This document shows positions 268 to 18,166 of a stretch of DNA of 64,000 nt, in pieces. The notes below the pieces were generated by a model. The model searched no databases. It saw only the letters and a list, made by a program, of their open reading frames with translations, and had not been told where the DNA came from. The position numbers were made by a program, and so were the translations under genes. Position 1 is the first letter of the stretch. The number at the start of each line of letters is the position of its first letter. Source of the DNA: Streptomyces sp. MMBL 11-1. Its GTDB lineage: Bacteria; Actinomycetota; Actinomycetes; Streptomycetales; Streptomycetaceae. Location: positions 2,852,001 through 2,916,000 of the forward strand of contig NZ_CP117709.1 in NCBI RefSeq assembly GCF_028622875.1, in the 5' to 3' direction.

Positions 268-440
268 GTGGTCCTCGGGTGGTTCCTCGGGGGCGCCGGG
301 GGTCTCGCACCGCGGGAGGCGGGCGCCCCGGGAGGCGGCGTTATTCGGCCGCCACGTTACCGCGAATGGGGGATACCGGTGCGCGCGCCGCCGGGTCGCG
401 GGCCGGGGCGGAGATCGTATGGGCCTACCGTGCGATGGTC

Positions 441-485
441 CCCTTGCACCGCAGAGGTGTCTCCCTTGCACCCCGGAGGTGTCTC
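441..485. repeat. Two 23-bp direct repeats at the LCP ribosome binding site
   Basis: Positions 441-463 and 463-485 are near-identical (2 mismatches, period 22): CCCTTGCACC, three variable bases, then GAGGTGTCTC. Only the second copy makes a GGAGG (475-479), and this sits 9 nt before the GTG at 489. The repeat therefore decides the start of the downstream gene. Slippage or a duplicated leader are both possible. Confidence 0.6.
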
Positions 486-488
486 CCC

Positions 489-1997: not shown

Positions 1998-2017
1998 CCC
2001 GGTGACCGCAGGGCGGA

Positions 2018-2093
2018 TGCCCGTATAGCCCTTGGGTGCCCGTGGGGCCTTTGGGAGCCCGTGGTGCCCTTGGGAGCGCGTGGTGCCCGTGGG
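2018..2093. repeat. Four 19-bp tandem repeats after the LCP gene
   Basis: Four consecutive 19-bp units (2018-2036, 2037-2055, 2056-2074, 2075-2093) follow the pattern TGCCCGTGGTGCCCTTGGG with a few changes each. They fill most of the space between two converging genes. The last nine bases of the LCP gene (TGCCCGTGA) resemble the start of the unit. No gene or clear terminator is seen here. Confidence 0.75.
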
Positions 2094-2116
2094 GCCCTCA
2101 AGGGGCTCGCGCGGCC

Positions 2117-2665: not shown

Positions 2666-2782
2666 ACAGTCCACCTTATGCGGGGGCCCGCGTCCCGCAG
2701 AATGCATCAGCTTCGCAACAGCCGTGGCCCAAATCTCCATACACCCTGTAAAGGCTGTAGTACGGCGCGGCACACTGAGCGA

Positions 2783-4102: not shown

Positions 4103-4121
4103 AGTCGTACGCAGAGCCGTT

Positions 4122-4153
4122 GAAGGGCGCCGGGCTGTTGCCCGGCGCCCTTC
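4122..4153. terminator. Bidirectional terminator between LCP and DUF5954-like genes
   Basis: A perfect 14-bp stem (4122-4135 with 4140-4153, GAAGGGCGCCGGGC) with a 4-nt TGTT loop lies between the ends of two converging genes, so it can serve both. Confidence 0.85.
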
Positions 4154-4171
4154 CTCCGTCTGCGGGGCCGC

Positions 4172-5218: not shown

Positions 5219-5687
5219 GCACTCAGTGTGCCGAAGGGGGCGTGCCGGTGTCAGGGGTTTGCCCCGCAAAGGGCTTCCCCCCCGCGCGGAGCCGACGCCG
5301 ACGAGCGCGCCGCCCCGGCCGCCCGTGGGGGCCGAGCGCGCTCGGACGAAGTCCCTGAATCGCTGGTCGCACCGGGTCGTGGCGCGCCGCGACCCGGTGG
5401 AGGCCGACCGGATCGTGGCCCACCGCGACCCGGCGGGCCACGACGTCAACTACCTAAAGAACCAAGAGAAAATACCCAACCCCACCCCACCCGATCCCGG
5501 TGGTCAACTGCGGGACGGGCCGGTCACCCACATGGGTGAGATTCACCAACTGGTGTGGATTTCGGTCGGGTTGGCGGGCATATGCTCGCGCTGACACACA
5601 ACACCAGACACCAGACATGAGACGGCCCCCGCCGGGACGGCAATCCCGAGCGAGGACCTGACCACCGAGGAAGAAGACCCTTCCCCC
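5219..5687. other. 469-bp intergenic region with overlapping palindromes
   Basis: No convincing gene. Around 5372-5440 a 24-nt segment is repeated imperfectly (TCGTGGCGCGCCGCGACCC, then TCGTGGCCCACCGCGACCC). At 5535-5547 there is GGTGA-GAT-TCACC, overlapped at 5544-5555 by CACCA-AC-TGGTG. These lie 26 bp before a possible -10 hexamer TATGCT (5581-5586). Together they look like an operator-promoter for the HTH gene at 5688. No good -35 is visible. Confidence 0.4.
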
Positions 5688-6815
5688 ATGGATACCCAGC
5701 ACGATATCGCCCTCACCCGCGCCCTGGCAGAGGTTCCCGGACCACTGCCGTTCTCCGGCGTGATCCACGTCGCGTTCCCGCACACGACCCGCTTCACGGT
5801 CGTGGGCAACCACCTCGCGCAGCACGACGGGCTCTCCCTCACCGCGATCGGGATCGGCGTACACATCCAGTCGCTGCCCGCCGGGTCCCAGGTCGGCGTC
5901 AAGGCGCTCACGGCCCGCTTCGCCGAGGGCGAGACCACGATCGCCGCCGCCCTGCGCGAGCTGGAGACCCACGGCTACCTGCACCGGTCCCGCGCCAGGC
6001 TGGCGAACGGCCGGGTGGTCACCCGCACGGTGTTCTGCAACCAGCCGGGCGCGTTGTCGCGGGGCGGGGCGGTGGCGCAGCCGATGCCGATGCCGATGCC
6101 GATGATGGTGGCTCCGTTGCCGGTGGTGGCGCCTGTGGTGCGGGTTCCGCCGATGCCTGTGGTGCCCGGTCCGCCTATGCCTGCGGAGGCGCCCGTGGTG
6201 CCGGTTCCCCCGACGCCTGCGGAGGCGCCTGTGGTGCCGGTTCCCCCGACGCCTGCGGTGGCGCCTGTGGTGCCGGTTCCCCCGACGCCTGCGGTGGCGC
6301 CCGGCCCTACGCTCGCGCCCCCGCCTGCGCCCGAACCCACCCCCGTACCGGAAGAAGAGCATCCGCCGGTCCGCGTACCGTCACGCATCGGGCCCAAGCC
6401 GCCGCGTCGGCCGCTCCCGCAGCCCCGCGAGCTGACCCCGGAGCTGCACCGCGCCGCCTCCGCGCTCCTCGCCGACCTCCGGCGTCATGCGCCGGAGCTG
6501 GTGCTCTCCGAGGACGACGTCGAGGAACTGGCCCCCGGCGCTGCCGCCTGGCTGGAGCGCGGCGCGCACCCCGGCGCCGTCCGCCACGCCCTCACGACCG
6601 ATCTCCCGCAGCCGCCCAAGTACCCGGCGAAGATCGTCAGGCACCGCCTCACCGTGCTCCTGCCGCCACCGCTCCCCGGCGCCCAGGAGCTGGCCCCGGT
6701 CAGCCGTACGCCCGTCACCCCCTTCCAGACCTGCGAGGGCTGTGACCGCGCCTTCCGCTCCCCGGCCCCGGGCCACTGCCGTGACTGCCGGGCCCAGTAC
6801 TGGGAGGCGGCGTAG
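5688..6815 (+). CDS. Winged-helix protein with proline repeats and a C-terminal zinc ribbon
   Basis: 375 residues in three parts. Residues 1-125 form a winged helix-turn-helix of the kind used in Streptomyces plasmid-type replication or conjugation regulators (VGVKALTARFAEGETTIAAALRELETHGYLHR). Residues 130-225 are low complexity: PMPMPMPM, then the 12-residue unit APVVPVPPTPAE/V at 168-179, 180-191 and 192-203, with a degenerate copy at 148-159. The C-terminal 130 residues end in a CxxC-x11-CxxC pair (C349, C352, C364, C367) that should bind zinc. It is probably a DNA-binding regulator; its target is unknown. It is transcribed from the preceding palindrome-rich gap. Confidence 0.75.
   Translation: MDTQHDIALTRALAEVPGPLPFSGVIHVAFPHTTRFTVVGNHLAQHDGLSLTAIGIGVHIQSLPAGSQVGVKALTARFAEGETTIAAALRELETHGYLHRSRARLANGRVVTRTVFCNQPGALSRGGAVAQPMPMPMPMMVAPLPVVAPVVRVPPMPVVPGPPMPAEAPVVPVPPTPAEAPVVPVPPTPAVAPVVPVPPTPAVAPGPTLAPPPAPEPTPVPEEEHPPVRVPSRIGPKPPRRPLPQPRELTPELHRAASALLADLRRHAPELVLSEDDVEELAPGAAAWLERGAHPGAVRHALTTDLPQPPKYPAKIVRHRLTVLLPPPLPGAQELAPVSRTPVTPFQTCEGCDRAFRSPAPGHCRDCRAQYWEAA
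6189..6296. repeat. Three 36-bp in-frame tandem repeats (12-residue unit)
   Basis: Three nearly identical 36-bp units inside the winged-helix gene encode APVVPVPPTPAE, APVVPVPPTPAV, APVVPVPPTPAV. The period is a codon multiple, so copy-number change would lengthen the linker without breaking the frame. Confidence 0.85.
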
Positions 6816-6861
6816 CCCCGCACGCCGACCGTCACGCGGTGGGCGCGGCCGGGCGTTGTCG

Positions 6862-7431
6862 CTACGCCTGGCAACGGCATCCGGCGAGGAGGGTCGCGAC
6901 CATGCGCCCGGCGTCGGCCCGGTCGTAGTCGGGGCCGGTGATGCAGAGGTTCCCGATAGCGCGCATGAGCGTGTAGGCGGTGACGTCCGGGCCGACCTCG
7001 CCGGCCGCGACGCAGGCGTCGAGCAGGGTCGTGCAGGCCGGGACCAGGGTGTCGAGCATCAGGGCGTGGAGGTTCTCCAGCCCCGGATCGCCGGACCCCA
7101 GGGCGGCACCGAGGCCGTGTTTCGTCACCAGGAACTCGACGAACGCGTCAGCCCAGCCGGTCAGGGCGGCGTACGGGGAGGCCGACTCCTCCAGGAGCCG
7201 GGGCGCGAGTGCGGCGCAGGTGTCGATCTGGTGCCGGTAGACGGCGGTGACGAGGTCCGCCCGGGTCGGGAAGTTCCGGTAGATCGTGCCGACGCCGACG
7301 CCGGCGCGTTCGGCGATGTCGCGGATGGGGGCCTGGACGCCCTGGTCCACGAAGACCGCCGCAGCGGCCGCCAGCACCCCGCTGCGGGTGCGCTGCGCCT
7401 GCGCTTGACGTACTCCGACCGGCTCCGGCAC
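6862..7431 (-). CDS. TetR family transcriptional regulator
   Basis: A 189-residue TetR-type repressor. The N-terminal helix-turn-helix is intact (RSGVLAAAAAVFVDQG, then RDIAERAGVGVGTIYRNFPT and RADLVTAVYRHQ). The C-terminal ligand-binding helices contain several cysteines (CAALAP, CTTLLDACV, GCRC). A GTG start at 7431 follows GGGAGAG. It faces the alpha/beta hydrolase gene at 7535 across a 103-bp gap holding two palindromes, so it very likely represses that gene and itself. The ligand is unknown, probably an ester or aromatic compound related to the hydrolase substrate. Confidence 0.9.
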   Translation of the reverse strand: MPEPVGVRQAQAQRTRSGVLAAAAAVFVDQGVQAPIRDIAERAGVGVGTIYRNFPTRADLVTAVYRHQIDTCAALAPRLLEESASPYAALTGWADAFVEFLVTKHGLGAALGSGDPGLENLHALMLDTLVPACTTLLDACVAAGEVGPDVTAYTLMRAIGNLCITGPDYDRADAGRMVATLLAGCRCQA

Positions 7432-7449
7432 GAGGCTCTCCCTTTACTC

Positions 7450-7491
7450 GCGGAACAATGTTCCGCTAAATTGGCGGAACAGCGCTCCGCC
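7450..7491. promoter_or_regulatory. Twin TetR operators between regulator and hydrolase
   Basis: A perfect 17-bp palindrome GCGGAACAATGTTCCGC (7450-7466) is followed 6 bp later by a related, imperfect one, GGCGGAACAGCGCTCCGCC (7473-7491). Both share GCGGAACA and their centres are 24 bp apart. Position and symmetry fit binding of TetR dimers over both divergent promoters. Confidence 0.75.
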
Positions 7492-7534
7492 AAAGTATGG
7501 CAGAGCGTCCCCCTAGGGAAAGCGCAGGTCCCCC

Positions 7535-8494
7535 ATGCCTTCCAGCCACCTGAGCCTCGACGGCGACGGCGACCACTACCGCGACCGCGACGGCTACCGC
7601 GACCAACGGATTGTCGCGGTCAAGCCCATCACCGTTCCCGCGCCCGGCCGCAGCGTCGGCCTCCAGGTGAAGGTCACCGCTCCCCTGTCCGGCCGGGACC
7701 TCCCCGTCATCGTGTTCTCCCACGGCAACGGATGGTCCCTGGACGGATACGAACCCCTCGTCGACCGATGGGCGGCGGCCGGGTTCATCGTCGTACAGCC
7801 CACCCACCTGGACTCCCGCCGCCACGGCATCGGGTGGGACGACCCGCGCTTCGCCACCATCTGGCGCGTCCGGATCGCCGACCTCCACGCGGTCCTCGAC
7901 GGCCTCGGCGACCTGCTGCGCCAGGCCGGCGGTCTGGAGGACCGGGCCGACCTCGAGCGCATCGCGATCGTCGGCCACTCCTGGGGCGCGCAGAGCGCCG
8001 GCGCGATCCTCGGCGCGCGCGTGCTGGACGCCGACGGCGTTCCCGGAGAGGACTTCTCCCACTCCGCCGTCTCGGCCGGCGCGCTGATCGCCGCGACCGG
8101 GACCGGCGACACCCTGACCCCGTTCGCCGCCGAGCACCTTCCGTTCATGAGGCCGGACTACTCCACCATGACCGCCCCGGCCCTGGTCGTCGCGGGCGGC
8201 AAGGACCGGTCCCAGCTCTCCACCCGGGGACCGGAGTGGTTCACCGACGCCTACCGCCTCGGCCCGTCCCCGAAGAGCCTGCTCTCCATCGCCGAGGGCG
8301 AGCACACCCTGGGCGGCCTCGCCGGCGAGGCGGTCGCCGAGACCACCGACGAGGACCCCGCCCGCGTCGCCCTCGTCGCCGACGCGGTCTCCGCCTACCT
8401 CCTCGACGCGCTCAAGCTCGACGACGCCGCGTGGACCGCCCTCAAGCGCACCGCTGCGGCCGGCGACGGCACGTGGAGCGTCACCGGCAAGTGA
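7535..8494 (+). CDS. Alpha/beta hydrolase (PAF-acetylhydrolase / chlorophyllase type)
   Basis: A 319-residue serine hydrolase. The nucleophile elbow is GHSWG with Ser149. The oxyanion region is VIVFSHGNGWSLDGY (residues 58-72) and a histidine lies in SIAEGEHTLGG (about residue 267). It has no signal peptide. The family cleaves esters, including short-chain or oxidised lipids; the substrate here is unknown. The first 25 residues are rich in D, R and Y (DGDGDHYRDRDGYRD) and the DNA there is a short repeat. It is controlled by the divergent TetR gene through the twin operators. Confidence 0.87.
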   Translation: MPSSHLSLDGDGDHYRDRDGYRDQRIVAVKPITVPAPGRSVGLQVKVTAPLSGRDLPVIVFSHGNGWSLDGYEPLVDRWAAAGFIVVQPTHLDSRRHGIGWDDPRFATIWRVRIADLHAVLDGLGDLLRQAGGLEDRADLERIAIVGHSWGAQSAGAILGARVLDADGVPGEDFSHSAVSAGALIAATGTGDTLTPFAAEHLPFMRPDYSTMTAPALVVAGGKDRSQLSTRGPEWFTDAYRLGPSPKSLLSIAEGEHTLGGLAGEAVAETTDEDPARVALVADAVSAYLLDALKLDDAAWTALKRTAAAGDGTWSVTGK

Positions 8495-8517
8495 CCCCAC
8501 GGGCGGCGCGCCTGCCC

Positions 8518-9396
8518 CTACGCCCGCCCCCGCGCCAACAACGCCACGTGCGGCAGCACCAACAGGCCCTCTGCCGTGCGGGATTCGGCGCACAATTCGT
8601 CATACGCCCGCCGGGCCGCCGCCACCCCCTCCGCGCCCCCGCTGTTGAGGACCTGGCCGATCGCACCGATCCCCCGTTCCGCCCCCGCCCACCAGGTGTC
8701 CGGGTCGCATCGGTGCTCCCACGCGACCTCGGAGCACTCCGCGCCGAGAAGTCCGGCCCCGTCGAGGAGGGCGGCGAGCCCTTCACGCGTACGGGGAAAG
8801 TCGTCCTCGGGGGCGAGCGCGGGAAGCCAGTCGGGGCGGGTGAGCCCGGCCGCCTGTACCGCGCGGCCGATCAGCGCCTGGCCGGGGGCTCCGGGCGACC
8901 GCCAGATGCTGACAGCGACCCGGCCGCCGGGTCGGGCGATCCGGCGCAGCTCGGCCAGCGCCTCGCGCGGGCGGCCCACGTGATTGAGTACGAAGTTGCC
9001 GACGACCGCGTCGAACGTGGCGTTCGCATAGGGGAGTTCGGGCAACAGGCCCGTACGCACCTCGGCTGTCGGGACCGCCCTGCGGGTTGCCTCCACCATG
9101 CCGGGCTCGGCGTCGACAGCGTGCACCGTCGCACCCCGCCCGGCGGCGAGGGCGCTGATGGCGCCGCTGCCGCAGCCCACGTCGAGGACGCTGGTGCCGG
9201 GCCCGGCCCCGGCTGCTTCGAGGAGGGCCGCCGCCGGGTGGGCGCAGAGCCGGGCGTAGGTGCTGGCGTACGCCTCGGCCTTGCCGGACCAGATGCGCCG
9301 CTCGGCGTCGTCGAAGGGGGTTGGGGAACGCTCCGCGTTCGCACGCGGGGGGACAGCCGTCCTGCCCGCTTCCCGTGGCACGGGGGAGGCGGTCAT
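8518..9396 (-). CDS. Class I SAM-dependent methyltransferase
   Basis: A 292-residue Rossmann methyltransferase of the UbiE/Methyltransf_11 type. Motif I is SVLDVGCGSGAISALAA (about residues 68-84). It is followed by VDAEPGMVEA and FDAVVGNFVLNHVGRPREAL, then the post-motif LRRIARPGGRVAVSIW. The substrate is unknown. It overlaps by 4 nt (ATGA) with the upstream gene at 9393-9863, so the two are translationally coupled. Confidence 0.87.
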   Translation of the reverse strand: MTASPVPREAGRTAVPPRANAERSPTPFDDAERRIWSGKAEAYASTYARLCAHPAAALLEAAGAGPGTSVLDVGCGSGAISALAAGRGATVHAVDAEPGMVEATRRAVPTAEVRTGLLPELPYANATFDAVVGNFVLNHVGRPREALAELRRIARPGGRVAVSIWRSPGAPGQALIGRAVQAAGLTRPDWLPALAPEDDFPRTREGLAALLDGAGLLGAECSEVAWEHRCDPDTWWAGAERGIGAIGQVLNSGGAEGVAAARRAYDELCAESRTAEGLLVLPHVALLARGRA

Positions 9397-9863
9397 GACC
9401 CGGCTCCCTTCGGTTCGAGTTCGGCGAAGTCCTCATGGAGGGCGTCGAGATGGCGGCCCGTCGGCGCTCCGGCCGGGTCCAGCTCCGCCAGTCGCCAGCC
9501 GGGCAACTGCGCCTCGACCTCCGCCGGGAGCGACCCGTCCGCCGGGACCGCCAGCGCGTGCAGCACCCCGAACGCGGTCTCCCTGGCGACCTCGCGGGCC
9601 AGTGCGCCGAGATCCTCGGGGGTGAGCCCGGCCGCCAGGGCCCGGTCGACGGCGTCGGCCGCCGCCCCGTCGGTGCGGTAGGCGTCGACCCACTGCGGGG
9701 CCGCCGCGCCCCAGGCGTCGACGTCCTGCCACACCGTCCGCAGGAGGCGGTAGCGGGCGAGCTGCGGCAGCCCCTCCTCCGCCTCGGACTCGGCCCAGTC
9801 GCGGGCGTCGCCGTCCGCACCCAGGGCGCTGAAGAGGGAGGTCAGCCTGTCGAGTTCGGTCAT
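9393..9863 (-). CDS. Small conserved-looking protein coupled to a methyltransferase
   Basis: A 156-residue acidic soluble protein (starts MTELDRLTSLFSALGADGD). It has no membrane segment or signal, and no family is recognised. It contains a helical, leucine-rich core (LARYRLLRTVWQDVDAWGAAAP and LTPEDLGALAREVARE). It is the first gene of a two-gene unit with the methyltransferase. The ATG at 9863 is the only start giving normal Streptomyces codon use; no good ribosome binding site is seen, so translation may be leaderless. Confidence 0.7.
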   Translation of the reverse strand: MTELDRLTSLFSALGADGDARDWAESEAEEGLPQLARYRLLRTVWQDVDAWGAAAPQWVDAYRTDGAAADAVDRALAAGLTPEDLGALAREVARETAFGVLHALAVPADGSLPAEVEAQLPGWRLAELDPAGAPTGRHLDALHEDFAELEPKGAGS

Positions 9864-10025
9864 GGGGAGGGAGGGTACCGGCCGGGGCCGGGGCGTGGTC
9901 GGGGATGGTGCGCGGTGCGAAACCGATGAGTTCTCGCGAGGTGCGCGGTCTGTACTTCCGTAAGACTGAGAGGCGGCACCGGGCACCGGAACCCGGGGCC
10001 CACCACGACACAGCCAGGAGACCTG

Positions 10026-10598
10026 ATGCGCACCCTGATCAGCACCGCCTTCATTTCGCTCGACGGCGTCATGGAGGCCCCGGGCGGTGAGCCGGGCTAC
10101 CGGAACTCGGGGTGGACGTTCAGGGACGTGGAGTTCCTGCCGGAGGCGTACGAGCTCAAGGGCCGGGAGCAGGAGGAGGCCGCCGCCCTGATGATGGGCC
10201 GGAAGAGCTACGAGGCGTTCAGTCCGGTGTGGCCGGGCATGGAGGAGTTCACGGGGTACAAGGCGATGCCGAAGTACGTCGTCTCCACCGGGCTGACCGA
10301 CGACGACCTGGTCTCCGACTGGGGCGAGACCACGATCCTGCGGTCGCTCGACGAGGTCGCCGCCCTGAAGGAGACCGAGGGCGGCCCGATCATCGTCCAC
10401 GGCAGCACCGAACTGAACCGGAACCTCTCGGACGCCGACCTGATCGACCGGTACCACCTGCTCGTCTTCCCGCTCCTGCTCGGCGCGGGCAAGCGCCTGT
10501 TCAGCGAGACGGACAAGGACACCCAGAAGCTGAAGCTCATCGAGCACGAGGCGTACGCCAACGGCATCCAGAAGAACGTCTTCGAGGTCGTCCGCTGA
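10026..10598 (+). CDS. Dihydrofolate-reductase-like protein (RibD C-terminal family)
   Basis: A 190-residue NADPH-dependent reductase-fold protein of the RibD_C / YwjB-like group. Characteristic are MRTLISTAFISLDGVMEAP at the start, AALMMGRKSYEAFSPVWPG, KYVVSTGLTDDDL, GGPIIVHGSTELNRNL and LVFPLLLGAGKRLF. AGGAG lies 7 nt before the ATG at 10026. Such stand-alone proteins are common in Streptomyces; the true substrate is usually not folate and is not known. Confidence 0.87.
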   Translation: MRTLISTAFISLDGVMEAPGGEPGYRNSGWTFRDVEFLPEAYELKGREQEEAAALMMGRKSYEAFSPVWPGMEEFTGYKAMPKYVVSTGLTDDDLVSDWGETTILRSLDEVAALKETEGGPIIVHGSTELNRNLSDADLIDRYHLLVFPLLLGAGKRLFSETDKDTQKLKLIEHEAYANGIQKNVFEVVR

Positions 10599-10643
10599 CG
10601 CGCGGGCACGGCCCGGCCGGTGCCGTACCCCCTACCTGCCTGC

Positions 10644-11171
10644 CTACGTGCCTGTGCGCACCCCTCGCAGGACGGTCTCCGCCACCTCCGCGGGCGTGAC
10701 ACCCGTCGTGTCGATCTCCCGGGCCTCCCGGCGGAGCCAGGGCAGGGCCCGCTCGTAGTCGGACAGATGGTCCAGGCGCCACTGCCGGGCGCCGGCGCTC
10801 TCGGGCTTGCTGTCGGTCTCGATACGTTCGACGAGCGTGTCGCGGTCCGTGTGCAGCAGGACGTGGTGCACGGGGATACCGGCCCGCGCCAGGCCGTCGT
10901 GGATCTCCTGCCAGTACGACTCCACCAGAACCGTCTGCGTGACCACCAGCGTTCCGCCCACGTGGTCGAGCACCTGCCGCGCGGTCTCCACCACCAGGCC
11001 CCTCCATGGCGGAAAGTCCTGGAAGTCCTTCTCCGGCACGCCGAGCACATGCCAGAGCATCTCGCCGACCTTCTCGGTGTCGAACAGCCGGGAGTCCGGG
11101 AGGAGCGAGGTCACCTCCTTCGCGGTGGTGGTCTTGCCCGCGCCGAAGGTTCCGTTCAGCCAGATGATCAT
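10644..11171 (-). CDS. TmrB-like P-loop ATP-binding protein
   Basis: A 175-residue nucleotide-binding protein with Walker A GTFGAGKTT at residues 7-15 (MIIWLNGTFGAGKTTTAKEV). It has a DTEKVGEML lid region and a basic C-terminal helix. Its start and size match TmrB (tunicamycin resistance) and related AAA_33/AAA_18 small kinases, which bind ATP and small molecules. Resistance is a family precedent, not something the sequence proves. The 3' end is followed by a short CAGG/CAGG repeat (10625-10650). Confidence 0.78.
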   Translation of the reverse strand: MIIWLNGTFGAGKTTTAKEVTSLLPDSRLFDTEKVGEMLWHVLGVPEKDFQDFPPWRGLVVETARQVLDHVGGTLVVTQTVLVESYWQEIHDGLARAGIPVHHVLLHTDRDTLVERIETDSKPESAGARQWRLDHLSDYERALPWLRREAREIDTTGVTPAEVAETVLRGVRTGT

Positions 11172-11303
11172 CGCTGCATCCTAGGCGCGGCCGGATACTC
11201 CGGGCACCGGAGCGACCGTTGCCCATAGGTTCGGACACAGCCGTTAGGTTCGGACACACAGCCGTCGTGAGGACGGACCGGACCTACGCATCAGGGAGCC
11301 CGC

Positions 11304-11882
11304 ATGGCATCCATCCACCGCACCACCATGACGCCCACCAAGCTGGAGCTGCTCACCGGCTGGCTGCCGAAGCAGAGCTGGTACGTGGGCGCCGGGGGAA
11401 CGCCGGACCTGGTCAAGGCCGGCGGCTTCCGTCTGGACGATCCGGCAGGGGAGGTCGGGATCGAGTTCATGGTCGTGGCGGACGCGGCCGGGCAGGAGCC
11501 GGTGGCGTATCTGGTGCCGCTGGGCTACCGCGGCGCGGCGCTGGAGGGCGTCCCCGACGAGGCTCTGATCGGCACCTCCGAGCACGGGGTGCTCGGCACC
11601 CGGTGGATCTACGACGGCGCCCACGACCCGGTGGTCCTGGCGCGGTTGGCCGCTCTTCTGCGCGGCGAGGCGGAGCCGCAGCAGCAGAACGTGAGCGACA
11701 CCCCCGACCCGACCGTCGTCGTGCACGGGGCCGGCCCCGGCCAGGCGGCGGACGTACGGATCAACCGCGTCCTGCGGGCGGCGGAAGCCGGGCAGGAGGC
11801 ATCGGGAAGTCTCGTCGCCGGCTGGACCTGGCCGGACGGGACGGCTGTACGGGGAGTGTTCGCGGCCCTCTCGCCGCAGTAG
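11304..11882 (+). CDS. Maltokinase N-terminal cap-like protein
   Basis: A 192-residue protein matching the maltokinase (Mak/Pep2) N-terminal cap domain found alone in many Streptomyces and often mis-annotated as a 1,4-alpha-glucan branching protein. Landmarks: ELLTGWLPKQSWYVG, FRLDDPAGEVGIEFMVV, YLVPLGYRGAALEG, LIGTSEHGVLGTRWIYDGAHDPV. There is no kinase domain. The ATG at 11304 has GGGAG 7 nt upstream. The cap may bind glucan or regulate the alpha-maltose-1-phosphate pathway, but its role as a single domain is not established. Confidence 0.8.
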   Translation: MASIHRTTMTPTKLELLTGWLPKQSWYVGAGGTPDLVKAGGFRLDDPAGEVGIEFMVVADAAGQEPVAYLVPLGYRGAALEGVPDEALIGTSEHGVLGTRWIYDGAHDPVVLARLAALLRGEAEPQQQNVSDTPDPTVVVHGAGPGQAADVRINRVLRAAEAGQEASGSLVAGWTWPDGTAVRGVFAALSPQ

Positions 11883-11894
11883 GAAGTCATGCGT

Positions 11895-11925
11895 ACGGCC
11901 CCCGGCGGGTCACACCGGGGGCCGT
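11895..11925. terminator. Terminator after the maltokinase-cap gene
   Basis: An 11-bp perfect stem (11895-11905 with 11915-11925, ACGGCCCCCGG) and a 9-nt loop, 13 nt after the stop. On the other strand it lies just beyond the duplicated acyl-CoA dehydrogenase 3' end. Confidence 0.8.
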
Positions 11926-11953
11926 GGCAAGTGGCGCCGCGCCAGGGACCGTT

Positions 11954-12015
11954 ACGGCAGGTTGCGCGCCATCACGATCCGCTGGACCTGGTTCGTGCCC
12001 TCGTAGATCCGGGTG
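11954..12015. repeat. Left attachment-like direct repeat (duplicated gene 3' end)
   Basis: 62 bp matching 15449-15510 with three mismatches, including an uninterrupted 43-bp identity at 11967-12009. On the minus strand it spells the last residues of the acyl-CoA dehydrogenase, IYEGTNQVQRIVMARNLP, and ends in TAA (11952-11954) instead of the gene's TAG; the codon for the final Arg is CGC instead of AGG. An extra copy of a gene's 3' end at the far side of foreign genes is the usual footprint of site-specific integration. Confidence 0.85.
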
Positions 12016-12127
12016 CTTTACCGGTAGCACGGCTCTGACCTGGGGATACACCCTCTCCATAGGGTGCCTCCCCAGCATTTCCCCATGATCACCAAGCCGA
12101 CCCCTTGGGACCTTCCTCGTTCCCTTG

Positions 12128-12165
12128 GTGGTCATGCGTTGGTCACGTGACCAACGCATGACCAC
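12128..12165. repeat. Perfect 38-bp palindrome with no spacer
   Basis: Bases 12128-12146 (starting GTGGTCATGCGTTGG) are the exact reverse complement of 12147-12165, centred on CAC/GTG. It lies 110 bp inside the left repeat and 150 bp before the first island gene. It could be a large operator, an accessory recombination or nicking site, or a terminator insulating the island. Confidence 0.85.
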
Positions 12166-12213
12166 GCCATACCCAAGGCCACCTCCGGCGGAGGCGGGCA
12201 CCACAGTTTTATG

Positions 12214-12227
12214 CGACAACGCAAATA
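12214..12227. promoter_or_regulatory. 14-bp motif repeated within the island, first copy
   Basis: CGACAACGCAAATA occurs here and again at 13850-13863. This copy is embedded in TGCG-ACAA-CGCA, a short inverted repeat, about 90 bp upstream of the first gene of the regulatory module. It is a candidate operator for the island's HTH protein; no binding is shown by sequence alone. Confidence 0.45.
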
Positions 12228-12314
12228 TTGGCGCGACCGCATGGACGGCGATGGCACGCCCTCCGTACGGTCGTGGAGCCGCCCCACGAGGGAGCGGGGA
12301 CAGGGGGTTTCGCC

Positions 12315-12524
12315 ATGGCTCGTGAGGAACTGACCCGACTCACCGGAAACGGCAACGGGGGACCTTGCGGCAAGGACGACTGCCCGAACATCTACCGCAC
12401 CGCGTCCGGCTCCATCGTCGTCCAGGGCGACGTGTCCAAAGCGTTCCAGCCCCCGGAGGGGGAAGGGCTTGTCGAGATCCCCGAGGGCGTTCTGAGGGAG
12501 GCTGTCCGTGCTCTTGGCTGGTGA
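12315..12524 (+). CDS. Small protein preceding DUF6879 (69 residues)
   Basis: MAREELTRLTGNGNGGPC followed by GKDDCPNIYRTASGSIVV. Two cysteines (PCGKDDCP) precede an IYRTASGSIVVQGD strand. It has no membrane segment. Small proteins of this type sit directly before DUF6879 genes in Streptomyces regulatory islands. The ATG at 12315 is used; longer in-frame readings upstream have no ribosome binding site. It overlaps the next gene by 17 nt, so the two are co-translated. Function unknown. Confidence 0.75.
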   Translation: MAREELTRLTGNGNGGPCGKDDCPNIYRTASGSIVVQGDVSKAFQPPEGEGLVEIPEGVLREAVRALGW

Positions 12525-13032
12525 AGAGTGGGCCGCGCGCTTTGAGGGTTTCCAGCGGGAAGCATGGCGTCTTGAGACCCTGCCGCAGTACCTCATGCCG
12601 CAGGAAGCCGAGGAGTTTCAGGCGTTCCGCGACGGCGCGCGTATCGACCCCGCAACGGTCCACAACGAGTACACAGACCGGCTCCGCAGGCAGGTCACGG
12701 AGGGGCGCGTTCAAGGACGCGTCCACATCGCCACTCGACCTCTGTCCGAGTACCTGCGGTTCGAGTTCTCCCAGTACTACCGACCGCACCTCTTGGCCGG
12801 GGAGCAGATCCGCATTCTCGACGTGACCGACAGAACCAACCCTCTTGAAGGGGTTCAAGACTTCTGGATGTTCGACCGGTCGGAAGTCGTGCTCATGAAC
12901 TATGAGCCTGACGGGAAGCAGATCAACCGCGAGGTATTCGAGGGCGATGCGGCCCCGTTCATCGAATACCAGCGAATCGCGGTAGCTGAGTCCGTGCCCT
13001 TCGAGGAGTTCGTGAAGGGTCTTGAGCTTTGA
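12508..13032 (+). CDS. DUF6879 family protein
   Basis: 174 residues, no signal or membrane segment. Features: FEGFQREAWRLETLPQYLMP, then EEFQAFRDGARID, RPLSEYLRFEFSQYYRPHLLAGE, VQDFWMFDRSEVVLMNYEPD. This order (a DUF6879 protein followed by an Scr1/DUF5753 HTH and a DUF397 protein) recurs in actinobacteria and is thought to be a regulatory or toxin-antitoxin-like cassette. The start is GTG 12508 with GGGAGG 7 nt upstream. The stop overlaps the next gene by 11 nt. The biochemical role is unknown. Confidence 0.78.
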   Translation: MLLAGEEWAARFEGFQREAWRLETLPQYLMPQEAEEFQAFRDGARIDPATVHNEYTDRLRRQVTEGRVQGRVHIATRPLSEYLRFEFSQYYRPHLLAGEQIRILDVTDRTNPLEGVQDFWMFDRSEVVLMNYEPDGKQINREVFEGDAAPFIEYQRIAVAESVPFEEFVKGLEL

Positions 13033-13864
13033 GCCTGAACGGCTAGGTCAGTCCAGGTCGGACCTAGCGGAAGCACTGCGAAGCCTGCGGAAGCGGGCTG
13101 GGAAGACTCAGACCTGGCTCGCTCGCCGCTGCAACATGTCACAAACCAAGGTCAGCAACATGGAGAGTGGGAAACTCACTCCCGCCATTGTTGACGTAGA
13201 GCTGATCCTTGATGCGCTTGGGACCGATGATCCGGCAGCCTCACAGATCCTCGAACTGGTTCGCACCGCGAATACCGAGTGGCAGGATCATTGGTCTTCG
13301 CGGCGTCGGGGCCTAGAAAAGAAGCAGAACGAGCTAGCCAGGATCGAAACGGTCACAACAGAGTTCCGATTCTTCCTACTCTCGGCGATCACAGGGCTAC
13401 TTGCTACGCCGGAGTATGTGCGTGCCAGTATCGCGGACACTCCCGGAGACCAGTCCAAGACCATTGCGAAAAAACTGGAACGCCAGAGGGTCCTCTACGA
13501 CTCGTCAAAGTCGTTCACGTTCCTGCTGACGGAACAAGCCGTGCGCTGGCCCTTTCTGCCACCTCTCGCCATGGCAATGCAGCTCGACCGACTGGCTTCG
13601 GTATCTCGAATTCCTAGTGTTCGGCTGGGAGTCATACCCTTGGCAGGCCACATTTCAGAGATGCCGCTGAACACTTTCACGGTATACGACCGGCGACTAG
13701 CCACTGTGGAAACCGGAACCGGTGCATTGATCCTGCGTGACCATCGCGACGTGAACGCATACCGCGAGGACTTCGAGAGGTACGAGTCGTACGCAGTGTT
13801 CGGAGACGAGTGTCGAGAACTCCTGAACGAGTGGTCCGGGATCTTTACCCGACAACGCAAATAG
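13022..13864 (+). CDS. Helix-turn-helix regulator with Scr1/DUF5753 C-terminal domain
   Basis: A 280-residue WhiJ/AbaA-like regulator. The N-terminal XRE helix-turn-helix (RSLRKRAGKTQTWLARRCNM, then SQTKVSNMESGKLTP) is followed by a DUF5753/Scr1 domain (from about residue 95: FRFFLLSAITGLLATPEYVR; later PFLPPLAMAMQLDRL). Members usually pair with a neighbouring DUF397 protein, which acts as partner or antitoxin; here that is the gene at 14255. Translation starts at TTG 13022 with GAAGGG upstream, overlapping DUF6879. The codon use (CTA, ACA, AGG) is atypical for this chromosome, consistent with transfer. Confidence 0.87.
   Translation: MSFEPERLGQSRSDLAEALRSLRKRAGKTQTWLARRCNMSQTKVSNMESGKLTPAIVDVELILDALGTDDPAASQILELVRTANTEWQDHWSSRRRGLEKKQNELARIETVTTEFRFFLLSAITGLLATPEYVRASIADTPGDQSKTIAKKLERQRVLYDSSKSFTFLLTEQAVRWPFLPPLAMAMQLDRLASVSRIPSVRLGVIPLAGHISEMPLNTFTVYDRRLATVETGTGALILRDHRDVNAYREDFERYESYAVFGDECRELLNEWSGIFTRQRK
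13850..13863. promoter_or_regulatory. 14-bp island motif, second copy
   Basis: The same CGACAACGCAAATA as at 12214-12227, here covering the last codons of the HTH gene and lying 40 bp before the next start (13903). Two copies ahead of two transcription starts suggest shared control, possibly by the HTH protein. Confidence 0.4.
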
Positions 13865-13902
13865 CACTAGAGGTCCCTCGCCTGCGGGCTGAGGATGTAC
13901 CT

Positions 13903-14217
13903 ATGCCGACCGAACCGAAGAGCGACAGTCAGAAGACCCCGCAGGGTTGGCGGATGGACCCCATCCCAAGCCGTCCGGCATATCAGGATGGTGATGGGAA
14001 CATTCGCGTGCCCATGTGGTTGACGAGGAACGGTCGGCATATGGCAGACACGGAAATGGTTCTGCTCCCGTCTGAGGCTGCCTTACTGGCCGACCACCCG
14101 ACCAACGCCATGCGGGACAACTCCCGATCGATGCTGCACGAGTTGTTCCGGGAGTCGGCGACGGCTCTTGGCCCTGGCGTTGTGTACGTGCGGAAGTCGG
14201 AGCAATACCCGGCCTGA
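13903..14217 (+). CDS. Unknown island protein containing a TTA codon
   Basis: A 104-residue soluble protein (MPTEPKSDSQKTPQGWRMDP ... IRVPMWLTRNGRHMADTEMV ... EQYPA). No family is recognised. Leucine 61, in SEAALLADHP, is encoded by TTA at 14083-14085. In Streptomyces this codon needs the bldA tRNA, which is present at 48.2 kb. The start is ATG 13903 with GAGG 9 nt upstream. It sits between the HTH and DUF397 genes, so it is probably part of the same regulatory cassette and would be made late in development. Confidence 0.72.
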   Translation: MPTEPKSDSQKTPQGWRMDPIPSRPAYQDGDGNIRVPMWLTRNGRHMADTEMVLLPSEAALLADHPTNAMRDNSRSMLHELFRESATALGPGVVYVRKSEQYPA

Positions 14218-14254
14218 TCCTGCCCCGTCACTGACCTCACAGGAAGGCACACCC

Positions 14255-14485
14255 ATGCCGGGAACCGACCTGTACAGCCTGCCTATCGACGGCGCCCAGT
14301 TCTTCAAGGCGTGCGGGGGCAACACGCATCCGGACGGCGAGTCCTGCGCCACGCTGGCGAAGATCGGCCCCGGCGCTTGGGCGCTGGGCGACAGTAAGCA
14401 GCCCGGTGCGGAGCCGCTGAGGTTCACCACTGCCGAACTGAACGCTGCCGGTATCGACCCGACGCGCTTCACCGTCTCGGCCTGA
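14255..14485 (+). CDS. DUF397 domain protein
   Basis: A 76-residue DUF397 protein. The family pattern is visible: FFKACGGNTHPDGESC, then WALGDSKQPGAEPLRFTTAE. DUF397 proteins are small partners of Scr1/DUF5753 HTH regulators (as with WhiJ), counteracting or tuning the regulator. The cognate HTH gene is 390 bp upstream. AGGAAGG precedes the ATG at 14255. Confidence 0.85.
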   Translation: MPGTDLYSLPIDGAQFFKACGGNTHPDGESCATLAKIGPGAWALGDSKQPGAEPLRFTTAELNAAGIDPTRFTVSA

Positions 14486-14565
14486 CTGGCCGCTCACTGG
14501 CTGGCGGTCTCCGCTCTCTGGGGAGGGCGGGGGCCGCCTTCAACTGCCCTGGACAGGATGACCAG

Positions 14566-15033
14566 TTGCACCACCACGGCTATCTATGGACCGGATCGAA
14601 GCAACGGTTCGATGATGAGGCGCTGAGGCGACTTCCGCACTCCGATCCACCTACGCCAGACGGTAAGCCGGAGCTGATCCAGCGGTACAAGGAAGTGAAG
14701 GCGGAGTTCCCCGTCGTAGACCTTCCTCCGCTGGAAACGTCGTACTGGCTGATCAAGCCACGCACATTGGTTCGGGGCACCTGGCAGGAGCCGAAAGAAG
14801 CAGCGGAATGGCTCGGGGAAAGACTGGCCGAGTACGCGCCCCGGTTCGCCTCCGAGTCGGACCGCGACAGCACGCGCCTGGCGATACTGGTCAACTCTGC
14901 CGCCGAACGGCTTGGTTGGGGCGGGGACGTGTCGCACGGCTTCTACCTGGAACGGCCCTCGTTCCTCTCCCTGGCCCTGGCGTGCTGCTCCCCGAACCGC
15001 GCCGCCCCAGAGCTCAGCTGCCCGCTCCGGTAG
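14566..15033 (+). CDS. Unknown island protein, 155 residues
   Basis: Starts at TTG 14566 (AGGA 8 nt upstream) with MHHHGYLWTGSKQRFDDEAL. The middle reads LETSYWLIKPRTLVRG and AEWLGERLAEYAPRF. No membrane segment or known domain is seen. It is followed directly by a terminator. Location within the island and ordinary ribosome binding support it as a gene; its function is unknown. Confidence 0.6.
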   Translation: MHHHGYLWTGSKQRFDDEALRRLPHSDPPTPDGKPELIQRYKEVKAEFPVVDLPPLETSYWLIKPRTLVRGTWQEPKEAAEWLGERLAEYAPRFASESDRDSTRLAILVNSAAERLGWGGDVSHGFYLERPSFLSLALACCSPNRAAPELSCPLR

Positions 15034-15047
15034 GTCGACACTCAGCA

Positions 15048-15082
15048 ACAAAGCCCCGGCCCTCAATGGGCCAGGGCTTTGT
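15048..15082. terminator. Terminator at the end of the island genes
   Basis: A 9-bp plus 5-bp stem (ACAAAGCCC/GGGCTTTGT and GGCCC/GGGCC, one mismatch between them) with a 5-nt loop, 15 nt after the last island stop codon. Confidence 0.85.
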
Positions 15083-15138
15083 GTTGGTGCGGTTCCACGG
15101 GTGCCAGCTGCGGTTCCGGGGAAGGGGAGACGGATCGC

Positions 15139-15246
15139 AAGCTGTCCGCGCGGATCCGCCGCCAGCGGTTCTCGTTCTTCTCCGCGATGACGGACTGGGC
15201 CGTCGTCAACGAGATCATCGGGCGCAACCCGTGCAAGAAGACCTGA
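15139..15246 (+). pseudogene. Fragment of a tyrosine recombinase (core-binding domain)
   Basis: A short open stretch ending in TGA (15244-15246) reads KLSARIRRQRFSFFSAMTDW followed by AVVNEIIGRNPCKKT. This resembles the helical core-binding segment of phage-type tyrosine integrases, which typically runs R-x-R-R...LsA...A-V...I..NPc. Upstream sequence in this frame has no protein character, and the catalytic R-H-R-Y domain is absent. It lies 200 bp from the right repeat, where integrases normally sit. The assignment is by pattern only. Confidence 0.4.
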
Positions 15247-15259
15247 CAGAGCCCACGCG

Positions 15260-15290
15260 AACGGCCCCCGGCAGAGCGCCGGGGGCCGTT
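15260..15290. terminator. Terminator beside the integrase fragment
   Basis: A perfect 13-bp stem (15260-15272 with 15278-15290, AACGGCCCCCGGC) and a 5-nt loop, between the integrase fragment and the right repeat. Its arm resembles the terminator at 11895. Confidence 0.8.
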
Positions 15291-15446
15291 ATGTTTGTGC
15301 AGGTGAGAGGCGGTTTTCCGCCCAGCGTCAGCCCAGGATTTCCCCAGCACAACGCCCACGATCGGCCCGAAACGGCCCTGCCCGGACCGGAAGCCGATCA
15401 CAGCCTGCGAGCCATCGAAAATGGCCGCTGACCTGCGAAAACCCAG

Positions 15447-16604
15447 CTACGGCAGGTTCCTCGCCATCACGATCCGCTGGACCTGGTTCGTGCCCTCGTA
15501 GATCTGGGTGATCTTGGCGTCGCGCATCATGCGCTCGACCGGGTAGTCCCGCGTGTAGCCGTAGCCGCCGAGCAGCTGGACGGCGTCCGTGGTGACCTCC
15601 ATGGCGACGTCGGAGGCGAAGCACTTGGCCGCGGCACCGAAGAAGGTGAGGTCGCCGTCGACGCGCTGGGACTTGGCGGCGGCCGAATAGGTGAGCTGGC
15701 GGGCCGCCTCCAGCTTCATCGCCATGTCGGCGAGCATGAACTGGATGCCCTGGAAGTCCGCGATCGGCTTGCCGAACTGCTTGCGCTCCTGGACGTACCC
15801 CTTGGCGTAGTCCAGCGCGCCCTGGGCGATGCCGATGGCCTGAGCGGCGATGGTGACGCGGGTGTGGTCCAGGGTCTTCATCGCGGTGGCGAAGCCGGTG
15901 CCCTCCTCGCCGATCATCCGGTCGGCCGGGATGCGCACGTTGTCGAGGTAGACCTCGCGGGTCGGGGAGCCCTTGATGCCGAGCTTCTTCTCCGGGGCAC
16001 CGAAGGAGACGCCCTCGTCGGACTTCTCGACGACGAACGCGGAGATGCCCTTGGAGCGCTTGGTCGGGTCAGTGACGGCCATGACCGTGTAGAACTCGGA
16101 GACGCCCGCGTTGGTGATCCAGCGCTTCACGCCGTTGAGGACCCAGAAGTCGCCGTCGCGCACGGCCTTCGTCTTCATGCCCGCCGCGTCGGAGCCGGCG
16201 TCCGGCTCCGAGAGTGCGTACGAGAACATCGCGTCGCCCTTGGCGAGCGGGCCCAGGTACTTGCGCTTCAGCTCCTCGGAGCCCGAGAGGATCACCGGGA
16301 GCGAGCCCAGCTTGTTGACGGCCGGGATGAGGGAGGAGGAGGCGCAGGCGCGGGCCACCTCCTCGATCACGATGACCGTGGCGAGCGCGTCGGCGCCGGC
16401 GCCGCCGTACTCCTCCGGGACGTGGACGGCGTGCAGGTCCGAGGCGACCAGGGCGTCCAGCGCCTCCTGCGGGAAGCGGCCCTCCTCGTCGACCGCTGCG
16501 GCGAAGGGGGCGATCTTCGTCTCGGCGAGCGCACGGATGGTCTCGCGGAGCATGTCGTGCTCCTCGGCCGGACGGTACAGGTCGAAATCGGTCGAACCCG
16601 CCAA
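15447..16604 (-). CDS. Acyl-CoA dehydrogenase
   Basis: A 385-residue FAD enzyme oxidising acyl-CoA to enoyl-CoA (fatty-acid or branched-chain catabolism). The family signatures are present: YALSEPDAGSDAAGM, WVLNGVKRWITNAG, QFGKPIADFQGIQFMLADMA, LLGGYGYTRDYPVERMMRD. The catalytic glutamate is in IYEGTNQVQR near the C-terminus. The start is placed at TTG 16604 (MAGSTDFDLYRPAEEHD) with GGGGAG 8 nt upstream; GTG at 16613 is the alternative. The last 20 codons coincide with the integration repeat, so the element rebuilt this gene's end without harming it. Confidence 0.88.
   Translation of the reverse strand: MAGSTDFDLYRPAEEHDMLRETIRALAETKIAPFAAAVDEEGRFPQEALDALVASDLHAVHVPEEYGGAGADALATVIVIEEVARACASSSLIPAVNKLGSLPVILSGSEELKRKYLGPLAKGDAMFSYALSEPDAGSDAAGMKTKAVRDGDFWVLNGVKRWITNAGVSEFYTVMAVTDPTKRSKGISAFVVEKSDEGVSFGAPEKKLGIKGSPTREVYLDNVRIPADRMIGEEGTGFATAMKTLDHTRVTIAAQAIGIAQGALDYAKGYVQERKQFGKPIADFQGIQFMLADMAMKLEAARQLTYSAAAKSQRVDGDLTFFGAAAKCFASDVAMEVTTDAVQLLGGYGYTRDYPVERMMRDAKITQIYEGTNQVQRIVMARNLP
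15449..15510. repeat. Right attachment-like direct repeat
   Basis: The partner of 11954-12015; here the repeat forms the real 3' end of the acyl-CoA dehydrogenase gene. The 43-bp exact core is 15462-15504. Confidence 0.85.
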
Positions 16605-16624
16605 GACGCTCACTCCCCAGATGC

Positions 16625-16636
16625 TAACTACCGTTA
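16625..16636. promoter_or_regulatory. Palindrome upstream of acyl-CoA dehydrogenase
   Basis: TAAC-TACC-GTTA, 20 bp before the start codon, in an unusually A/T-rich leader (TTAAGTAACTCAATTTTAG). It may bind a TetR- or FadR-type regulator of fatty-acid catabolism. Confidence 0.4.
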
Positions 16637-16822
16637 AGTAACTCAATTTTAGTGCGCCTGCCGCCGGAAGGCATACGTGCCGTGTACGTGAGCTTCCCGA
16701 CAGGGGTGGAACATATCCGGCACGGCGGACAGATAGCGCACGGATAGAGCGGTGAATTCCGGCCTTCAGCTCCCCGACTATGCTCGGTCCGCACGTCCGT
16801 CCGTATCTTCCAGGAGCACTCC

Positions 16823-18166
16823 ATGGCCCTCAGGATCACTGTGATCGGCACCGGCTATCTCGGCGCCACCCATGCTGCGGCCATGGCCGAGCTGGGCTTC
16901 GAGGTCCTGGGGCTCGATGTCGTACCGGAGAAGATCGAACTGCTCTCCACCGGCCGCGTGCCGATGTACGAGCCGGGCCTGGAGGAAATGCTGCAGCGGC
17001 ACGTCGCCGGTATCGAGGGATCCACCGGGCGGCTGCGCTTCACCACCTCCTGGGAGGAGGTCGGGGAGTTCGGCGACGTCCACTTCGTCTGTGTGAACAC
17101 CCCGCAGAAGCACGGCGAGTACGCCTGCGACATGAGCTACGTCGACAGCGCCTTCGATTCGCTGGCCCCGCACCTGACCCGGCCCGCCCTGGTCGTCGGC
17201 AAGTCGACCGTCCCGGTGGGCTCCGCCGCCCGCCTCGCGGTCCGCCTCGCCGAGCTGGCTCCGGCGGGCGCGGACGTCGAGCTGGCCTGGAACCCGGAGT
17301 TCCTCCGCGAGGGCTTCGCCGTGAACGACACCCTGCACCCCGACCGGATCGTCGTCGGGGTCGCGAGCGAGGGGGCCGAGAAGCTCCTGCGCGAGGTGTA
17401 CGCCGTGCCGGTCGCGGAGGGCTCGCCGTTCGTGGTGACCGACTTCCCGACCGCCGAGCTGGTGAAGACCTCCGCCAACTCCTTCCTCGCCACCAAGATC
17501 TCCTTCATCAACGCGATGGCCGAGGTGTGCGAGGCCGCCGACGGGGACGTCGTGAAGCTCGCGGAGGCCATCGGGCACGACGAACGCATCGGGAAGAAGT
17601 TCCTGCGGGCCGGGATCGGCTTCGGCGGCGGCTGTCTGCCCAAGGACATCCGCGCCTTCATGGCGCGCGCCGGCGAGCTGGGCGCGGACCAGGCGCTCAC
17701 CTTCCTCCGCGAGGTCGACTCCATCAACATGCGCCGCCGCGGCCACATGGTGGAGCTGGCCCGGGAGGCGGTGGGCGGCGACTCGTTCCTCGGCAAGCGG
17801 GTGGCGGTGCTGGGCGCCGCGTTCAAGCCCGACTCCGACGACGTACGCGACTCCCCCGCGCTCAACGTCGCCGGGCAGATCCACCTCCAGGGCGGCCAGG
17901 TGACCGTGTTCGACCCGAAGGGGATGGACAACGCCCGGCGGCTGTTCCCGACGCTCGGCTACGCCGCCTCCGCGCTGGAGGCGGTGCGCGGGGCGGACGT
18001 GGTGCTGCACCTGACGGAGTGGCGCGAGTTCCGCGAGCTGGACCCGGCGGAGCTGGGCGAGGTGGCCGCTCGCCGGATCATCCTGGACGGCCGCAACGCC
18101 CTGGACAGCGCGGTGTGGCGCGAGGCCGGGTGGACGTACCGGGCCATGGGCCGCCCGAAGGCCTGA
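16823..18166 (+). CDS. UDP-glucose/GDP-mannose 6-dehydrogenase family protein
   Basis: A 447-residue NAD-dependent dehydrogenase that oxidises a nucleotide sugar (most likely UDP-glucose to UDP-glucuronate). The NAD site GTGYLGATHA is at residues 9-18 and VCVNTPQ at 89-95. The catalytic cysteine is Cys271 in GFGGGCLPKD. The C-terminal NDP-sugar domain begins GKRVAVLGAAFKPDSDDVRD. CAGGAG lies 8 nt before the ATG at 16823. Products feed exopolysaccharide or wall glycopolymer synthesis, which matches the LCP and GT genes in the window. The exact sugar is inferred from the family. Confidence 0.87.
   Translation: MALRITVIGTGYLGATHAAAMAELGFEVLGLDVVPEKIELLSTGRVPMYEPGLEEMLQRHVAGIEGSTGRLRFTTSWEEVGEFGDVHFVCVNTPQKHGEYACDMSYVDSAFDSLAPHLTRPALVVGKSTVPVGSAARLAVRLAELAPAGADVELAWNPEFLREGFAVNDTLHPDRIVVGVASEGAEKLLREVYAVPVAEGSPFVVTDFPTAELVKTSANSFLATKISFINAMAEVCEAADGDVVKLAEAIGHDERIGKKFLRAGIGFGGGCLPKDIRAFMARAGELGADQALTFLREVDSINMRRRGHMVELAREAVGGDSFLGKRVAVLGAAFKPDSDDVRDSPALNVAGQIHLQGGQVTVFDPKGMDNARRLFPTLGYAASALEAVRGADVVLHLTEWREFRELDPAELGEVAARRIILDGRNALDSAVWREAGWTYRAMGRPKA

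Follow-up and report, generated by a model that had tools for sequence, protein, structure and literature searches.

How did a 3.4-kb island of genes in Streptomyces sp. MMBL 11-1 come to lie between two long direct repeats of the 3' end of a protein-coding gene, an acyl-CoA dehydrogenase gene, with no working integrase beside it? The island is part of a 64,000-nucleotide stretch of contig NZ_CP117709.1 (positions 2,852,001 to 2,916,000), which we call the window and in whose coordinates all positions are given; related genomes and loci are cited by our own G and L numbers. Comparison with these relatives indicates that the island is very probably a deletion derivative of an integrative element of the dehydrogenase site, which has lost most of its integrase and would stay fixed in place, immobile unless a related integrase enters.

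An insertion at the 3' end of an acyl-CoA dehydrogenase gene

The two repeats are 63 nucleotides (nt) long and identical at 60/63 positions, and the dehydrogenase gene ends in the right copy, stop codon included (Table 1). Exact 30-mers occur twice on the + strand of the 64 kb at only two pairs of places, the attachment (att) repeats and one other at about 6224/6260, so the att repeats are far beyond chance. The other pair belongs to a short exact tandem repeat (6224-6301) whose 30-mers are shared at 36-nt spacing. The 3.4-kb insert has a GC content of 62.7%, the lowest of 303 segments of equal size, against a mean of 71% for the window. The protein end ...MARNLP is preserved in both copies in the window, and the same dehydrogenase C-terminus is found in the right copies of all 20 elements delimited in named Streptomyces genomes (18 exact, 2 with one extra residue).

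An empty site, proposed as a check by the original prediction made for this DNA, is present in G005, where a dehydrogenase gene 95% identical to that of the window is accompanied by one repeat only. To the left of this single repeat the sequence resembles the left flank of the island (window 11892-12015 aligns to L031 10738-10862 at 82%), and to its right lies the dehydrogenase gene (L031 10800-13507 to window 15448-18166, 92.5%). The left copy in the window ends in TAA, as does the empty site; the right copy ends in TAG, suggesting that the stop-side part of the right repeat was probably borne by the element. Two genes found left of the island at 10608-11891, an open reading frame (ORF) that looks kinase-like by eye and one with a maltokinase N-cap, are missing at the G005 site; their loss or gain is a separate insertion or deletion, apart from the island.

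Direct repeats would by themselves fit a simple duplication of the segment, or a homologous exchange, that copied the 3' end of the gene, with unrelated genes in between. Given the empty site, the different stop codons of the two copies in the window, and the repeats, end sites and integrase that many species share at this gene (see below), this explanation is scarcely credible. We confirm the island as an att-flanked insertion in the 3' end of a Streptomyces dehydrogenase gene, as the original prediction had claimed. A tRNA was rejected as the integration target, the window's sole tRNA gene (48172-48257) being distant from the island, and no RNA family reached its gathering score between 8000 and 20000. 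In the mechanism that we propose, a dedicated tyrosine integrase would recombine the att site of the element, a copy of the last dehydrogenase codons, with the 3' end of the gene; the dehydrogenase protein sequence would be retained, and the old 3' end would remain on the opposite side of the insert, as the left repeat.

The integrase remnant and the element family at the dehydrogenase site

The prediction that the island carries no integrase was half right. A working integrase is absent, but a fragment at 15127-15240, corresponding to residues ~170-207 of an integrase (89.5% identical), had been overlooked. The remnant lacks most of the C-terminal part, which is missing between 15241 and 15242, and also the N-terminal part; comparing the letters of relatives, we saw no microhomology at the deletion. 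A remnant bearing a deletion suggests that the island once had an integrase, most of whose gene is missing from the genome of the window, and since residues ~170-207 are all that is left, we class the island as a deletion derivative. The alternative of a new, integrase-free class of element is refuted by this remnant and by the family integrase found at the same gene.

The missing DNA can be seen in G036, which has the same cargo between the same repeats (window 11949-15024 aligns to L041 8086-5005 at 89%) and extra DNA at two places, 513 versus 101 nt and 707 versus 0 nt. The 707-nt stretch and part of the 513-nt stretch encode a tyrosine integrase that is longer than the remnant but damaged, its pieces (residues 121-134, 131-332, 334-366 and 359-444) lying in differing frames. 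Streptomyces mashuensis JCM 4059 (G035) has an open integrase frame of 444 aa with a match to PF00589. Among 29 loci of relatives (L002-L030), L005, L011, L024 and L025 carry blocks of at least 115 nt from the right part of the island beside the same gene, and four further loci matched the island over 34-51 nt only.

A search of 392 Streptomyces genomes with the integrase gave 21 matches at E <= 1e-60, in 20 genomes. All 19 matches of at least 83% identity, intact or partial, adjoin the 3' end of the dehydrogenase gene, 15 of them with an open frame of at least 409 aa; the two matches at 37% identity are not near the dehydrogenase gene within 1.5 kb. The integrase, intact or partial (partial in at least two cases, L098 and L101), likewise lies beside the dehydrogenase gene at 32/32 loci from named Streptomyces genomes, so that the integrase-bearing elements which the original prediction had suggested seeking at this locus do exist. 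A second repeat in the same direction was found in the fetched DNA of 20 of the 32 named loci, delimiting elements of 3.8-11.5 kb, and was not found in the other 12 partly because contigs or flanks end.

The ends of these elements are also alike. The 9-mer CTGACCTGC, allowing one mismatch, occurs at a near-fixed offset in 27/34 left ends and 32/34 right ends, and at both ends in 26/34 elements including the island. The 9-mer was picked after inspecting the ends, and letter-shuffled ends reach 0.4% per end. Part of this conservation may simply reflect descent, since the elements share ancestry; we regard the 9-bp end sites as candidate arm-type sites. The island thus has the family's att repeats on both sides and a CTGACCTGC-type site at both ends, and lacks an intact integrase. 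Just inside its left end is a perfect palindrome, one 16-nt arm of which (at most one mismatch) recurs in L041, L078, L089, L090, L091 and L169; the whole 38 nt was found in 0/40 relatives at up to 3 mismatches.

Larger members of the family carry genes of another kind. ORFs of the S. mashuensis element match a DNA primase family, DUF3987, Lsr2, a major head protein (phrog_267, 2.8e-44) and a scaffold family (2.3e-6), a combination of integrase, replication and capsid-related genes expected of a satellite. Queries with S. mashuensis proteins found a primase-like protein in 11 and a head protein in 4 of the 22 elements mapped (the 20 named elements with a second repeat, G036 and the window), neither of them in the island. 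The G335 element (11.7 kb) has a head protein 93% identical, and the inner element of G350, at 13.1 kb the largest seen, gave no head-protein match. Relatives of 11-12 kb (L070 at 98-11382, L071, L078, L099 and L144) encode a major head protein and, in part, scaffold-like and primase-like proteins; no terminase or portal was recognised among the L070 ORFs tested. One 8.7-kb IMG/VR contig also belongs to the family, with DUF397-like and 155-aa protein genes beside primase-, head- and integrase-like ORFs (by eye, the 155-aa protein being aligned). Judged by their genes, the large members (~11-12 kb) may be satellite-like, perhaps a new type of Streptomyces satellite. A small tyrosine-integrase element in Streptomyces could also point to an actinomycete integrative and conjugative element (AICE) as the parent, an origin that we consider very unlikely: the 10 window frames and nine S. 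mashuensis proteins tested include neither a recognisable conjugative DNA translocase nor a recognisable replication initiator, and the large members have primase-like, head and scaffold-like proteins instead. We found no description of the family in the open PMC papers searched, which miss most subscription journals; 'acyl-CoA' is absent from the main text of PMC10023795, whose table of sites is in a supplement.

Several observations weigh against a simple deletion derivative. Synonymous divergence (dS) between the window and G036, a comparison of one relative and one core gene, is unequal between blocks: 0.14-0.17 in the left module (the small protein, DUF6879 and HTH-DUF5753 genes), 0.25-0.62 in the other cargo genes and 0.31 in the dehydrogenase gene. 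The island is accordingly a mosaic, and its pieces may have arrived separately. A recoded stretch identifies the right repeat as element-borne in several elements; it is absent from the right repeat of the window and, with stop codons variable among the other elements, the exact crossover point is not settled. The DUF397 assignment of one cargo gene falls under the Pfam cut-off (17.9 versus 24 bits). Finally, the original state of the island is reconstructed from relatives, and its integration and any excision are predicted from sequence.

Integrase-less copies and movement in trans

Loss of the integrase is not peculiar to the window. Using the left end of the island (11953-12100) as a query, we found matches reaching well beyond the 63-nt repeat in at least 27 of the 392 genomes, in a match list that extends to about 1e-20 and whose other entries cover the repeat only (the partial matches G081, 1-69, and G082, 1-90, are left out of the 27). 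An integrase match at 1e-60 is present in 15 of the 27 and absent from 12, the genome of the window included. Eleven integrase-less copies (10 and the window) could be traced to the right repeat, which is present in 11/11; the contig of the twelfth, G280, ends early. No integrase fragment at E <= 1e-4 is left in 8 of the 11, and the fragments in the other three differ: residues 170-207 in the window, 93-140 and 376-444 in G237, and 51-142 and 404-444 in G289. No two of the 11 are alike in their remains, as judged by similarity mapping with junctions not aligned singly, which suggests repeated loss in place. The smallest copy (G134, 1.2 kb) is barely more than both ends. Partial integrases occur in three more genomes (G006, G036 and G221). 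Counting four integrase-bearing genomes outside the 27, the copies number at least 31, of which 15 have a long open integrase frame, 14 lack one and two are cut by contig ends (G280 and G351).

Outside this count, G023 (L034/L043) has an inverted copy of 43-45 nt of the att repeat ~4.1 kb from the gene's own 3' end. The right end of an element lies beside the gene, with no integrase match, and G023 perhaps holds a rearranged integrase-less copy.

In G350 (L168/L169), three att copies are arranged in tandem. In the outer element (5.5 kb) the left module, with a DUF6879 protein 59% identical to that of the window, is joined by genes that by eye resemble those for a kinase, an aldo/keto reductase and a cupin-type protein; this element has no integrase match. 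It is without the 206-nt right end, and its last ~25 nt before the repeat match those of the inner element, which encodes the integrase (90%). This tandem is a natural pairing of a cargo element with a possible helper.

These copies bear on the helper model of the original prediction, in which the island would instead be a still-mobile, non-autonomous element that a co-infecting or co-resident full element moves in trans with its integrase. Because the island keeps both att copies and both 9-bp end sites, such movement is anatomically possible, and helper-dependent mobilisation of the island is, from its sequence, a possibility. The 12 integrase-less genomes, the right repeat kept in every traced copy and the G350 pairing all fit, and the left module, being less diverged from G036 than the dehydrogenase gene is, suggests transfer between lineages. 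On the other side, the 11 mapped copies all differ, giving no sign of one stripped element spreading, and 0/12 integrase-less genomes hold an integrase match at 1e-60. In the genome of the window itself, the remnant apart, the single match is 27% identical, with no other close integrase. Retention of the repeats is also less telling than it seems, since the right one terminates the dehydrogenase gene and would be kept anyway and the left-end query selects copies with left ends; two of the 11 (G182 and G398) lack the right 9-bp site. We regard a still-mobile island as possible, if rather unlikely. Unlikely, too, is a two-tier system in which integrase-bearing, partly capsid-encoding, satellite-like elements would be ridden by many integrase-less cargo elements (with regulators and, in G350, the cupin-, reductase- and kinase-like genes as well) that share their ends and use their integrase; if it were true, these would be satellites with satellites of their own. 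The frequency of integrase-less copies makes trans-mobilisation of satellite-like elements directly testable.

Cargo genes, regulation and known systems

The features of a deletion derivative as we read them in the window are collected in Table 1. The original prediction had named DUF6879, an Scr1-type HTH and DUF397 proteins: the first is recovered, as is an HTH_31 and DUF5753 regulator, and the third is a weak match. The almost purely regulatory cargo, from which it argued for a helper-dependent element, is no odd choice, the left-end module being the usual one in the family. In gene-call clusters, DUF6879-type proteins occur in 18 and HTH-DUF5753 proteins in 17 of the 22 mapped elements, mostly at the left end; tblastn with the window proteins finds DUF6879 in 16, HTH-DUF5753 in 18, and the DUF397-like and 155-aa proteins in 11 each.

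Table 1. Features of the island and its target gene in the window
Feature	Position	Strand	Remarks
Left att repeat	11953..12015	-	probably the displaced original dehydrogenase 3' end; TAA stop; left flank matches G005 empty site
Conserved end site CTGACCTGG	12035..12043	+	19 nt inside left att; one mismatch to CTGACCTGC; candidate integrase arm site
Perfect palindrome, 38 nt	12128..12165	.	just inside left end
20-nt repeat, upstream copy	12208..12227	+	putatively operator-like; bounds small protein-DUF6879-HTH unit
Small protein, 69 aa	12315..12524	+	no Pfam match; dN/dS 0.08 versus G036
DUF6879 protein, 174 aa	12508..13032	+	Pfam 141.6 bits; predicted phospholipase-D-like fold without HKD motif
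HTH_31 and DUF5753 regulator, 280 aa	13022..13864	+	59 and 97 bits; dN/dS 0.08
20-nt repeat, downstream copy	13844..13863	+	inside final codons of HTH gene
Protein of unknown function, 104 aa	13903..14217	+	
Weakly DUF397-like protein, 76 aa	14255..14485	+	17.9 bits, under Pfam cut-off 24
Conserved protein without family, 155 aa	14566..15033	+	with DUF397-like gene in 11/22 mapped elements
Integrase remnant	15127..15246	+	residues ~170-207, then stop codon in integrase frame
Element right end	15242..15447	+	92% identical to G036, 90% to G035, 73% to G016
Conserved end site CTGACCTGC	15428..15436	+	11 nt before right att
Right att repeat	15448..15510	-	TAG stop; now terminates dehydrogenase gene; stop-side part probably element-borne
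Acyl-CoA dehydrogenase (target gene)	15447..16646	-	protein end ...MARNLP*

Between the window and G036, the ratio of nonsynonymous to synonymous divergence (dN/dS) is 0.08-0.15 across the left module, indicating that its three genes are under purifying selection relative to this one relative. The structural model of the DUF6879 protein has a phospholipase-D-like fold; the HxKxxxxD (HKD) catalytic motif is found in 0/47 DUF6879 sequences, the sequence has no match among solved structures at E <= 0.1, and no open PMC paper on DUF6879 was found. We found 835 relatives of the 155-aa protein at E <= 1e-3 and nothing that matches it in Pfam, PHROG or NCBIfam; its fold model is weak (predicted local distance difference test score 71), with no PDB match at E <= 0.001. 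One source labels a relative of it L,D-transpeptidase, which is unsupported in this analysis.

The small protein-DUF6879-HTH unit is bounded by a 20-nt repeat, the 14-nt core of which is present at both unit ends in 15/16 loci at up to 2 mismatches, the sample being G036 and 15 loci that match nearly the whole unit (L155, L156, L158 and L160 left out). The related loci for these unit repeats are L147-L154, L157, L159 and L161-L166. In the window alone, 2/60 shuffles equalled the repeat pair, and where the module is of another version no 20-nt repeat of this kind stands out above shuffles. We tentatively read these repeats as operator-like; they may instead bound a nested cassette. The regulator, an HTH_31-DUF5753 protein, has the WhiJ/Scr1 architecture. 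WhiJ9 of S. venezuelae binds to direct repeats that lie upstream of iosA, and in the same species BldB and BldB9 (DUF397) form hetero-oligomers (PMC10294661). By analogy, the HTH protein of the island may control its own operon through the upstream repeat. The left-end unit probably works as an autoregulated switch, in the manner of the WhiJ/BldB modules, in which DUF6879 would be a non-catalytic partner of phospholipase-D fold.

The same module could instead be a toxin-antitoxin or anti-phage system, through which addiction or benefit would maintain the element. For XRE-DUF397 pairs a role as type II toxin-antitoxin systems has been suggested (PMC6262351 and PMC10364602), the module is under purifying selection, and it often outlives the loss of the integrase. 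We nevertheless hold this to be doubtful, as the titles of both papers, and PMC10294661, speak of regulators, PADLOC returned generic HTH matches only and none for the other cargo proteins, and the HKD motif is missing throughout the DUF6879 sequences.

What looked like a puzzling 'integrase-free regulatory island' becomes, as a probable deletion derivative, part of a defined element family with an attachment gene, end sites and an integrase. In Streptomyces, regulators of the BldB/WhiJ/Scr1 type are important for development and antibiotics. The integrase and its att site are a possible integration tool, and for DUF6879 a fold is proposed, phospholipase-D-like without the catalytic motif.

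Compared with known systems, the island resembles, in its sequence, WhiJ-BldB(-AbaA/IosA) and the XRE-DUF397 pair Scr1-Scr2 in having an HTH-DUF5753 regulator, a small DUF397-like protein nearby and an operator-like repeat upstream. It differs in adding DUF6879 and the 69-aa protein, and in that its DUF397-like match is below the cut-off and separated from the HTH gene by the 104-aa gene. Cis-mobilisable elements (CIMEs) arise from integrative elements by deletion; like them, the island is att-flanked and appears to have lost its recombination module by deletion while keeping its cargo. Unlike that of a CIME, its parent looks phage-satellite-like rather than conjugative, a likeness drawn from sequence. 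The Streptomyces phage satellite MulchRoom has integrase, Lsr2-like, capsid, scaffold, terminase and portal genes and no recognisable primase (PMC10690885). All integrase matches in 739 phage and 106 plasmid records were below 60% identity (best phage match 32.7%), MulchRoom not having been looked up by name. Unlike MulchRoom, the dehydrogenase-site family has no recognised terminase or portal among the proteins tested. Like MulchRoom, some of its ~11-12-kb members carry an integrase, here of the tyrosine type, and Lsr2-like, head and scaffold-like proteins; they have primase-like proteins in addition.

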